Below are positions 17,097-25,397 of a DNA stretch of 30,094 nucleotides, in pieces. A program made the translations under genes and the position numbers. This stretch comes from a virus. The notes under the pieces were generated by a model. It was not told the origin of the DNA. It searched no databases and saw nothing but the letters and a program-made list of their open reading frames with translations. Every line of letters begins with the position of its first letter. Positions within the stretch are counted from its first letter, which is position 1. The DNA is taken from positions 1 through 30,094 of IMG/VR virus record IMGVR_UViG_3300030012_003882. One strand, 5' to 3'.

Positions 17097-18587
17097 TCAA
17101 AACAAATCAAGTTGTGCGTTTTCAAGTTTGTACTGTTTACGAGCTGCATCAATACGCCCCTCAATGATTGGCAAGTATTCCGGTGTAATTTCCATGCCAA
17201 CAAAATCAAAGCCCTCAAGAAGTGCAGCTGCGCCCGTTGTTCCGCTACCCGTAAAAGGATCCAGTATCACTGATCCCTTTTGCCCGCCAATCAATCGACA
17301 GCACCAACGCATCAGCTTGATCGGCTTGACTGTGGGGTGTATGTTGCGCACCTCGTTTGCGGTTCGACCTGCGCCCGCTCTCGGATTGTCCAAACCTGCG
17401 GATCCCTCTTTGCGGTGTACCGCCTCAAAACCTTTGGTTGTTTCCAAATGATCAAGCCCTTCCTCACGCTCAGATCGTGAGGCTTTGGCGCATTGATAAA
17501 GATTTGCGGGCCATCGGGCTTGAGGTGACCAATTATTAATTACTTGTTTTGAGGCGTTGAATTGCGTATCACTTTTCATGTCTTTAATTGCTTTGTTTAC
17601 ATGTGGTGGTCTGTAATTATCGTTTTCATTTGGCCCCACCCAACAAGGATCACCATAACCAAAACGACACGCATCTATATTGAGCGCACCCGTGCCATGT
17701 TTCAACACATTTTGTGCAATCGTCAAACCCTTTTCAAGCGGCTTACGAAGTAACAAAGCGGGTTCAACTGCGGGCTTGAGTGCCGTGCCAAACCCCACCC
17801 ATTTTTGAGCGTCTTGTGTTGCGGGTTTTGTGATTGTGTTGATCTTTTCAGGCGTTTGAAATGTCCGCTTTGTTTTTCGTTCGCCTGTGACGCTTGAAAT
17901 AATCCCAGTATCCACACGATCTTTGTATTGTTGACTTTCTATTGTTCTTTGATTGATCATATCTTCTATGTATTTTGGAACATCAATTTTTATGTGTGGC
18001 CTCATCAATTCAAAAATATCTCTTGTTGGTATTGATGGTTGACTTGCTTTTGTTGTGTAATGTTGCCCCATGTTCGTATTTGTAATTTTATCAATCTGTG
18101 ATGCGCTCAAGCCTGTTGATCTCATCCATTTTGTAAATGATAGATTTCTTTTTCGTCTGATCTCTACCGCATCAAGTTTATCGATCGCTTTGCTTATATC
18201 GTGCGACTTTGGAAATCCTGAGAAGTAACACCAGTGAATCATATCACGTATCACAAACCCGCCCTTTTGTGCAGCCATACCCAACGCACAAACGGTACGC
18301 GTTGAGCTAAAGGCTATCATGTGCCCCCCGTGTTTTAAGACACGTAAACACTCAGCAAAGAAGTTGTGACAGGGCACGGCCTGATCCCACTCTTTGCCCA
18401 TAAAACCTTTGAGCTTGCGCCCCTCTTCGATGTCAGCCCATGTGCGTGCGATACCATCCGGTGACATGCCGTAGGGGGGATCTGTGCAAATTGCATCAAT
18501 ACTGCAATCAGGCAATGTTTTGAGGAGTTGCATGCAATCCCCGTGTAATATTTTTGTTGTTGGTATATCATCCCAGTTGTCGATCAT
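17097..18587 (-). CDS. DNA methyltransferase (N6-adenine/N4-cytosine, beta-type order)
   Basis: This 496-residue protein starts MIDNWDDIPTTKILHGDCMQ. Motif IV DPPY is at residues 36-39 and the AdoMet-binding DPFTGSGTTG at 443-452, the motif IV-before-motif I order of beta-type enzymes (CcrM-like, Pfam N6_N4_Mtase). HPTVKPIKLMRW precedes motif I. About 200 residues between them form an insert with target-recognition character. ATG 18587 is chosen over ATG 18593 because AAAGGA is well spaced only for the former. There is no partner restriction gene, so it is an orphan enzyme, probably protective or regulatory. The target sequence cannot be read off; GATC or GANTC are untested possibilities. Confidence 0.93.
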   Translation of the reverse strand: MIDNWDDIPTTKILHGDCMQLLKTLPDCSIDAICTDPPYGMSPDGIARTWADIEEGRKLKGFMGKEWDQAVPCHNFFAECLRVLKHGGHMIAFSSTRTVCALGMAAQKGGFVIRDMIHWCYFSGFPKSHDISKAIDKLDAVEIRRKRNLSFTKWMRSTGLSASQIDKITNTNMGQHYTTKASQPSIPTRDIFELMRPHIKIDVPKYIEDMINQRTIESQQYKDRVDTGIISSVTGERKTKRTFQTPEKINTITKPATQDAQKWVGFGTALKPAVEPALLLRKPLEKGLTIAQNVLKHGTGALNIDACRFGYGDPCWVGPNENDNYRPPHVNKAIKDMKSDTQFNASKQVINNWSPQARWPANLYQCAKASRSEREEGLDHLETTKGFEAVHRKEGSAGLDNPRAGAGRTANEVRNIHPTVKPIKLMRWCCRLIGGQKGSVILDPFTGSGTTGAAALLEGFDFVGMEITPEYLPIIEGRIDAARKQYKLENAQLDLF

Positions 18588-18605
18588 TGTCATTGTCCTT
18601 TGTTT

Positions 18606-23673: not shown

Positions 23674-24699
23674 TTATATCACTGCACATTGTATGAGGGC
23701 GGCAAAATCCTCAAGGTTTGGATCGGCCTCAATCTCATTGCGGATCTCATCGGTCAAGTTGCCACCACGAACCCAATCAAAAACTTCATTTGCACATTGC
23801 TCGTAATCGCTTGTATTTGCCCGAAAACGCGCCCAAAGGGTTTGCGCCTTGCCGTTGCCATGCATTGCGGCCGCTTGCGCTTTGTCGCTGCTTTCAACAG
23901 CTTGCAAAGCCTGATCTTTTATTTCCTCCACAAGCTCAGGCTCAAGCGTTATCGTGCTCAATCTCATTTTGTTATTGTCGTATCGCGTTGGCGGCTTGTC
24001 GCTCTCTTTGGCAACCCAACGATCACGAAACTTTGAGGCCCAGCTGCGCCCAACATACATGCCGTTTACACTGTGCTCAATAATGTACGTGTCGATCTTG
24101 CGCACGGCCTTTGAGACTTGCAACACGGTTGCGCCCGCCTTTATGCTATCAAAGTCAGATTGTATATCAACGCTTTGCCAGCCTTGAGACGTTGCATGCT
24201 TTGCCCATAACTCACCCAACCAAAGATCACGCAAATCAACCTCATCATTGATGAGGGGTTTAATTTCCTTTGATGGCTTAGTACTCTCTTTAATTGGATC
24301 TATTTCTTGTATCTCTTTACTGGATCTACTTAGGGGATCATTTTCGATCCCCCTAAGGCTTAGAAATGATCCCCCTAAGGATCGTTTTTGATCCCCCAAA
24401 GGATCATTTTTGATCCCCTTTGGCTTAGAAATGATCCCCCCTACATCATAGATATTTGATGATGTTCGCTTGCTGCTCTTGAGATTGATCGCGCCCTTTT
24501 CCCGCAGCTCTTTGAGGCCCCGCTTGACGCTTCCAAGTGAAAGCCCCGTATTCTCAACAAGCGTGCCTTTGGATGGAAACGCCTGACCATCCGCACCCGC
24601 AAAAAATCGCATTTCGATGAGCACAAGGATCGCGGCTTTGCTCAAATCTTGAAATGCTCGCGCATCGTCCTTCGTTATCTTGATAAATAAATCAGCCAT
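23674..24699 (-). CDS. Replication initiator / replisome organiser with HTH domain
   Basis: This 341-residue protein starts MADLFIKITKDDARAFQDLS with AGGACA upstream. Residues 20-85 form a winged HTH of the HTH_36 type (AFPSKGTLVENTGLSLGSVK, then RGLKELREKGAI), as in many phage and plasmid initiators. The low-complexity part at about residues 86-140 is encoded by five 22-bp DNA iterons. Residues 150-235 hold a DnaD-like helical block (LWLGELWAKHATSQGW, then FRDRWV). It would bind the iterons inside its own gene and recruit host helicase, as lambda O does (family analogy). No helicase gene is visible, so host replication proteins are needed. Confidence 0.75.
   Translation of the reverse strand: MADLFIKITKDDARAFQDLSKAAILVLIEMRFFAGADGQAFPSKGTLVENTGLSLGSVKRGLKELREKGAINLKSSKRTSSNIYDVGGIISKPKGIKNDPLGDQKRSLGGSFLSLRGIENDPLSRSSKEIQEIDPIKESTKPSKEIKPLINDEVDLRDLWLGELWAKHATSQGWQSVDIQSDFDSIKAGATVLQVSKAVRKIDTYIIEHSVNGMYVGRSWASKFRDRWVAKESDKPPTRYDNNKMRLSTITLEPELVEEIKDQALQAVESSDKAQAAAMHGNGKAQTLWARFRANTSDYEQCANEVFDWVRGGNLTDEIRNEIEADPNLEDFAALIQCAVI
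24328..24445 (-). other. Iteron array, candidate origin of replication
   Basis: Five direct copies of a GGGGGATC-cored unit (plus strand GATCCCCC) start at 24346, 24368, 24390, 24412 and 24433, giving periods of 22, 22, 22 and 21 bases, two DNA turns. An inverted half-copy (GGGGATC) lies at 24333. The period is not a multiple of three, and the protein reads the repeat in all three frames, so selection is on DNA. The location inside the initiator gene mirrors lambda ori in gene O. Each core contains a GATC. Confidence 0.8.
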
Positions 24700-24737
24700 A
24701 TAATGTCCTATTGTTTGATTGTTGTTGTTGTCTCAAT

Positions 24738-24752
24738 CAATATAACATAATG
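24738..24752. promoter_or_regulatory. Degenerate dyad in divergent initiator/exonuclease promoter region
   Basis: CAATATAACATAATG matches the 15-bp dyad at 12 of 15 positions. For the minus strand TTGTAC (24768-24763) stands 18 bases from TATATT (24744-24739). For the plus strand TATAAC or CATAAT could serve as -10. The site lies between the divergent starts at 24699 and 24789 and may control both. Confidence 0.5.
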
Positions 24753-24788
24753 TATCAATCTTGTACAACAAAAGAGGCAATCAAAATT

Positions 24789-25397
24789 ATGTATGTAGTA
24801 TTAGACACTGAAACAACGGGCCTGTATCCCAGTAAACACGAAATGATCGCATATTGCGGCATCAAGCTCAATGCACAGCTTGAGGAAATTTGCCGCCTGC
24901 ACATCAAAATCAAACCGCAAAACATCACACAAGCGGATCCCGAAGCGTTGCGCGTCAATGGCTATTCGGATTACCGTTGGCGTGATGCAATCGAACCAAC
25001 CGAAGCCGGCAACCTGATAGCGGATTTTATGCGTGATTGTATACCCGTTGCACACAACTGGCCATTTGATAGGGGCTTTATTCTTGCACACCTCAATAAA
25101 CACACAAACGGCCGCAAAATCTTGAGGCGCGGGATCGATACCGTATCACTTGCAAGCGCAGTGCTGATCCCGATGGGCTACAAAAGCGTATCAATGCACA
25201 CAATTGCCGATCTCTTTGGTTGGCCAAAACAAACCCATGAGGCCCTAGACGATACGCTTTATTGTGTGCAGTTGTTTCGCCTCCTTTACCCCTACAACGC
25301 ACGCAACATGATCAAGGTGCGTATGATGCTATACCGTGCTAAGATAGCCTTGTATATGAATCCAATGAGGGGCAAAAACAATGGGGCTAAATCTTGA
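24789..25397 (+). CDS. DnaQ-like 3'-5' exonuclease (DEDDh)
   Basis: This 202-residue protein starts MYVVLDTETTGLYPSKHEMI at ATG 24789, with AAAGAGG upstream. An earlier frame start at 24711 lies in the promoter region. Exo I is DTE (D6, E8), Exo II has D94 in NWPFDRGF, and Exo III is HEALDD with H150 and D155, so all DEDDh residues are present. Such enzymes act as proofreading subunits or nucleases in DNA or RNA turnover. No polymerase is adjacent. Oddly, its last 17 bases overlap a gene that starts a fibre-type structural set. Confidence 0.85.
   Translation: MYVVLDTETTGLYPSKHEMIAYCGIKLNAQLEEICRLHIKIKPQNITQADPEALRVNGYSDYRWRDAIEPTEAGNLIADFMRDCIPVAHNWPFDRGFILAHLNKHTNGRKILRRGIDTVSLASAVLIPMGYKSVSMHTIADLFGWPKQTHEALDDTLYCVQLFRLLYPYNARNMIKVRMMLYRAKIALYMNPMRGKNNGAKS

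Follow-up and report, generated by a model that had tools for sequence, protein, structure and literature searches.

An initiator-like gene in the genome of an uncultured phage

The window analysed here is the complete 30,094-bp virus record IMGVR_UViG_3300030012_003882, which stems from an uncultured tailed phage, may be a fragment, and carries terminase, portal, capsid protease, tail and lysis genes. No protein or DNA match to the window was found among 50,697 annotated phages, and a search with its terminase against one genome per bacterial or archaeal species returned a single match of 24% identity. Relatives were therefore gathered from 2.9 million viral contigs, using the initiator described below, the terminase and the iteron pattern as queries. 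This yielded 12 other distinct full-length initiators, whose identity to that of the window ranges from 91% down to 26%. A scan of the same contigs with the iteron pattern alone returned six stretches on six contigs, all of which encode the same initiator. The close clade consists of seven phages, i.e., the window and L001, L002, L003, L012, L007 and L030.

The gene of interest is located on the minus strand at positions 23674 to 24699, and its open reading frame and 341-aa translation, its Pfam and PHROG matches, and an AlphaFold2 model mark it as initiator-like. The protein matches the Pfam family HTH_36 (42.6 bits against a cut-off of 25; E = 5e-11), as do all 13 members of the initiator family. 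Via the winged helix, it also matches several PHROG families, of the replication initiation and O-like kinds, which again applies to all 13 members; the O-like matches span the winged helix and the linker region. The Pfam search revealed no lambda O family above the cut-off and no match to the RepA_N domain (PF06970), and the weak fold matches that include RepA_N domains (4pql, 5kbj and 4pt7; E about 0.07-0.15) are not significant. The AlphaFold2 model, built from the alignment of the 13 members, places a winged helix at aa 10-86 and a helical C-terminal domain at aa 156-340, and the linker between these two folded domains (aa 93-151; pLDDT about 30) is predicted to be disordered. When modelled alone, the C-terminal domain (23677-24246, minus strand) gives a confident all-helical model with a pLDDT of 88.5. 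This domain has no family or PDB match in the libraries searched, and it is possibly a new host-recruitment domain.

The initiator gene is separated by the intergenic region 24700-24788 from a divergently oriented gene encoding a DnaQ-like exonuclease (24789-25397, plus strand). The intergenic region is strongly conserved and contains a run of TTG repeats and a TGTAC core. A sigma-70-like match in this region reads into the initiator gene, but it is weak and no more than expected by chance. It is possible that the region has a regulatory function shared by the two genes.

The iteron array and the constraint on its DNA

The initiator gene contains five near-palindromic 16-bp dyads between positions 24335 and 24437, which are given here as they read on the minus strand, the coding strand of the gene. 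Their half-site is GGNTYA, their centre is A- or T-rich, and they occur in two forms: GGATCA-AAAA-YGATCC, in which G replaces A in the last unit, and GGATCA-TTTC-TAAGCC. In gene order, units 1 (24422-24437) and 4 (24357-24372) have the latter form; unit 2 (24401-24416), GGATCA-AAAA-TGATCC, is a full dyad, and unit 3 (24379-24394) reads GGATCA-AAAA-CGATCC. Unit 5, GGGGATCGAAAATGATCCCC (24333-24352, with its 16-bp dyad at 24350-24335), borders an A-rich stretch; it has perfect arms (7/7) and does not vary among the seven phages of the close clade. On the plus strand, the GATC beside a G-run starts at positions 24346, 24368, 24390, 24412 and 24433; GGGGGATC is present four times in the array, and the fifth unit is AGGGGATC. 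Elsewhere in the window, only isolated matches to the dyad were found, and no other cluster.

In gene order, the dyads follow each other at 21, 22, 22 and 22 bp. None of 2000 synonymous-codon shuffles of the gene produced five dyads in a row at distances of 21-23 bp, the longest shuffled chain being two, and none of 500 synonymous shuffles equalled the period-22 self-similarity of the gene. Six phages share this spacing, and L030 carries an additional, sixth unit. Unit 2 has switched to the other form in L002 and L012. A previous examination of this DNA, which we refer to as the sequence-only reading, had described five units at 22, 22, 22 and 21 bases that the protein reads in three frames. 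Both statements are confirmed: the spacing is the same one read on the plus strand, and the frames of the units in gene order are 1, 1, 2, 0 and 1. What can be added is that the units are dyads, that the neighbouring A-rich element is equally constrained, and that GATC is over-represented throughout the genome.

The A-rich stretch, located at 24277-24334 (minus strand) and recognised by its synonymous fraction and its composition, is purine-biased and constitutes a putative unwinding element. In the close clade it contains 69-76% A+T and 69-78% purine; its A+T content reaches 87% in distant relatives, and the relatives examined also have an A-rich and mostly purine-rich stretch after the array.

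Selection on the gene was studied by comparing five close relatives (the window, L001, L002, L003 and L012). The synonymous difference is 31% in the rest of the initiator gene versus 2% over 24277-24459 (minus strand; codons 81-141), and this DNA-constrained segment, which we propose to be the origin, extends beyond the interval that the sequence-only reading had delimited. Broken down by part, the synonymous fraction is 0.306 for the winged-helix codons, 0.022 for the array, 0.026 for the A-rich stretch and 0.316 for the C-terminal codons. Amino-acid differences, in contrast, are not reduced, being 0.094 in the array and 0.185 in the A-rich stretch, as compared to 0.149 in the winged helix and 0.139 in the C-terminal domain. 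The differences among the relatives are located mostly in the spacers, where they alter amino acids. Thus, within the segment the protein is free to vary and the DNA is not, which bears out the earlier suggestion that it is the DNA of the repeats, and not the protein they encode, that is conserved; judging from these substitution patterns, there is clear selection on the iteron units at the level of the DNA. Together, the array and the A-rich element encode the predicted disordered linker of the initiator, so that the DNA can stay fixed at little cost to the protein. To place these values in context of the genome, we scanned 3,780 windows of 37 codons, from genes for which two or more relatives were usable. 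The synonymous fraction was below 0.05 in 33 of them, and all 33 lie within the initiator gene; the next-lowest gene, encoding a methyltransferase, has a minimum of 0.083, and there the amino acids are conserved. An overlapping gene was considered as a source of the constraint and rejected, as no other ORF of at least 60 aa spans 24277-24459. Just outside the constrained segment, and still inside the initiator gene, a short perfect hairpin, CCTCATCATTGATGAGG, is present at 24240-24256.

Constraint of this kind might also reflect a structure in the initiator mRNA, serving for example translational control. The segment does fold better than its shuffles (z = -3.67), as palindromes tend to do, but the covariation term of the consensus fold is only -0.24, and the double changes affect three pairs that all belong to one helix. 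Moreover, the changes in the form of unit 2 between relatives break its hairpin, and a spacing of approximately two helical turns is meaningless for RNA. We therefore regard conservation for the sake of RNA structure as extremely unlikely. The dyads might alternatively be operators through which the initiator represses or paces its own transcription, in which case the origin would lie elsewhere. Iterons often double as autoregulatory sites, and the gene does encode a winged helix. However, the dyads are located about 260-365 bp into the gene, away from the promoter, the region upstream is devoid of a similar cluster of dyads, and the constraint includes the A-rich stretch, for which an operator has no need. 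A role of the dyads solely as operators is accordingly very unlikely in our opinion.

Half-sites, GATC and modular exchange among relatives

Repeats are also present in the linker of the more distant initiators, but their sequences differ. In L040 these are TGATCA dyads at 23 bp, in L028 they are repeats of the type GAGGAAAAAGTGATCCTC, and in L025, L035 and L038 they are ATATC dyads; L023 has a 22-bp repeat in its linker, and shares ATATC-like repeats with L038. Most of these arrays exceed what is obtained in synonymous shuffles. It should be noted that the period test against such shuffles was not significant for L028, L035 and the close-clade phage L003, whose arrays were called from half-site counts (L028 and L035) or from the alignment (L003), and that the half-site count was not significant for L023.

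The degree of conservation of the two folded domains differs between comparisons. Within the close clade, the C-terminal domain has diverged more than the winged helix, and L023 and L038, which have similar repeats, share 55% identity in the winged helix versus 21% in the C-terminal domain. The window and L040, whose iterons differ, show the opposite pattern, with 33% identity in the winged helix and 50% in the C-terminal domain. Although few in number and made without a tree, these sequence comparisons suggest that the winged helix and the array move as one module, which is exchanged against the C-terminal domain. This pattern also bears on the view that the dyads serve in partition or packaging and not as an origin. 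Repeated dyads are known at partition and packaging sites as well, and the gene for the terminase small subunit is about 2 kb away from the array. However, no gene of the window was recognised as a partition gene, and the gene in which the sites reside belongs to a replication-initiation family, the sites co-varying with its DNA-binding domain; we consider it highly improbable that partition or packaging is what they serve.

The presence of GATC in the units deserves separate attention. The window contains one GATC per 84 bp, and the 295 occurrences in coding sequence exceed the 166.5 expected from synonymous shuffles 1.77-fold (z = 16), making GATC the most over-represented among the palindromic tetramers tested. 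In most relatives its density is one per 75-94 bp, with values of 258 bp for L038 and 132 bp for L035. The 36 units of the close clade have an intact GATC in 34 of their left and 17 of their right half-sites, so that it is missing from 2 and 19, respectively, and is not a feature of every putative initiator-binding repeat. The flanking GG is kept better, in 71 of the 72 half-sites, and in the half-sites of distant relatives GATC is optional or replaced by ATATC. Since GATC is common genome-wide, is lost from right half-sites, and gives way to other half-sites in distant relatives, it is most simply explained as part of the putative binding half-site.

The sequence-only reading had raised the possibility that methylation controls replication, and had likened the array to P1 oriR. 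In P1 oriR, GATC is located in heptamers beside the iterons, and oriII of Vibrio cholerae has taken its place as the closer precedent. All 11/12-mers of oriII hold a GATC, and methylation is needed for efficient binding of RctB (PMC2865523). The phage resembles oriII in having GATC inside its (here putative) initiator-binding repeats, but the initiator gene and the origin are arranged differently, the phage repeats do not all hold GATC, and no kinship between the phage initiator and RctB was found. The phage encodes a beta-class DNA methyltransferase (17097-18593, minus strand) that is CcrM- and DpnA-like in separate segments; around its codons 272-310, where the amino acids are conserved as well, synonymous divergence is the second lowest in the genome. 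As an addition to a function as origin, methylation of the GATC adenine by a host or phage enzyme might gate binding of the initiator. The precedent of oriII, the CcrM/DpnA-like enzyme, the near-constancy of GATC in the left half-sites and the presence of ten GATC sites within the 183-nt segment speak in favour of such gating. Nevertheless, GATC is frequent across the whole genome, half of the right half-sites lack it, and its presence varies among relatives that have other iterons. In view of this, methylation control has become a weak proposition: gating of binding is very unlikely, and it is likewise very unlikely that the initiator reads the methylation state of the iteron GATC, set by the host or by the phage CcrM/DpnA-like enzyme, so as to gate the origin. 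If true, such gating would time replication within infection. GATC methylation may alter binding in some hosts, although the pattern is explained without it.

A putative replication origin inside its own initiator gene

Taken together, these results make it very probable that the array and the adjacent A-rich stretch are the replication origin of the phage, located inside its own initiator gene in the style of lambda O and RepA_N. This view is well supported by the comparison of related sequences, and the function of the array as an origin is inferred by analogy with known systems. The lambda-like layout put forward by the sequence-only reading is supported by the constraint, the position of the array and the model of the linker. 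GC skew, proposed as a check in the same context, was also analysed; across the window it tracks gene orientation, which makes it uninformative as a test for an origin, and it provides no origin mark independent of gene direction.

By analogy, the N-terminal winged helix would bind each of the five dyads, probably in the form of a dimer; as the dyads follow each other at about two helical turns, all sites would face the same side of the double helix. The nucleoprotein complex thus formed would then open the A-rich stretch beside unit 5, after which the helical C-terminal domain may recruit the replicative helicase or primase of the host. Recruitment of a host enzyme is proposed because no phage helicase or helicase loader was recognised among the scanned proteins of the window, in which several genes have no assignment.

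The iterons of the lambda origin, which is located in gene O, are inverted repeats that contain an A-tract, and two of them beside the AT-rich tract are enough for opening (PMC7466680). The phage shares with it the direct repeats that are themselves imperfect inverted repeats with a central A-tract, their position in the middle of the initiator gene, and the AT-rich neighbour. It differs in having five units of another sequence, no Pfam match to lambda O, no recognised P-like helicase loader, and a C-terminal domain unrelated to library entries. The initiator of plasmid pSK41 uses its N-terminal winged helix to bind repeats located in the rep gene; its central linker is encoded by the origin, and its C-terminal domain, which is host-specific, binds the host primase (PMC5703833). 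The iterons of RepA_N systems are semi-palindromes that converge on a poly-A tract (PMC7145576). As in pSK41, the phage repeats are located in the initiator gene and the proposed origin DNA codes for the linker, but the phage initiator has an HTH_36 domain and no RepA_N Pfam match, and it belongs to a phage instead of a plasmid. The hybrid initiators of the pPR9 type have an HTH_36 (pfam13730) N-terminus, described as homologous to a phage replication protein, that together with the origin has been exchanged as one module against a conserved C-terminal domain (PMC5703833). The phage has the same Pfam N-terminal domain and the same modular pattern, whereas pPR9 is a plasmid with a C-terminal domain of the pSK41 type. 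Thus, the phage initiator is by sequence outside the lambda O and RepA_N families, and by analogy it would work like them; the kind of origin is already known, and the putative member described here is new.

In summary, we have described a likely origin, together with the initiator that belongs to it, for a group of uncultured phages of roughly 30 kb that have no match among annotated phages. The evolution of an intragenic origin can be followed here from sequence alone: the DNA stays fixed, the encoded protein sequence drifts, and changes in the iterons accompany those in the DNA-binding domain. Having several types of iterons, the family constitutes a ready set for studying the co-evolution of winged-helix initiators and their iterons. 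In addition, scanning initiator genes for synonymous constraint could reveal origins in other uncultured phages.
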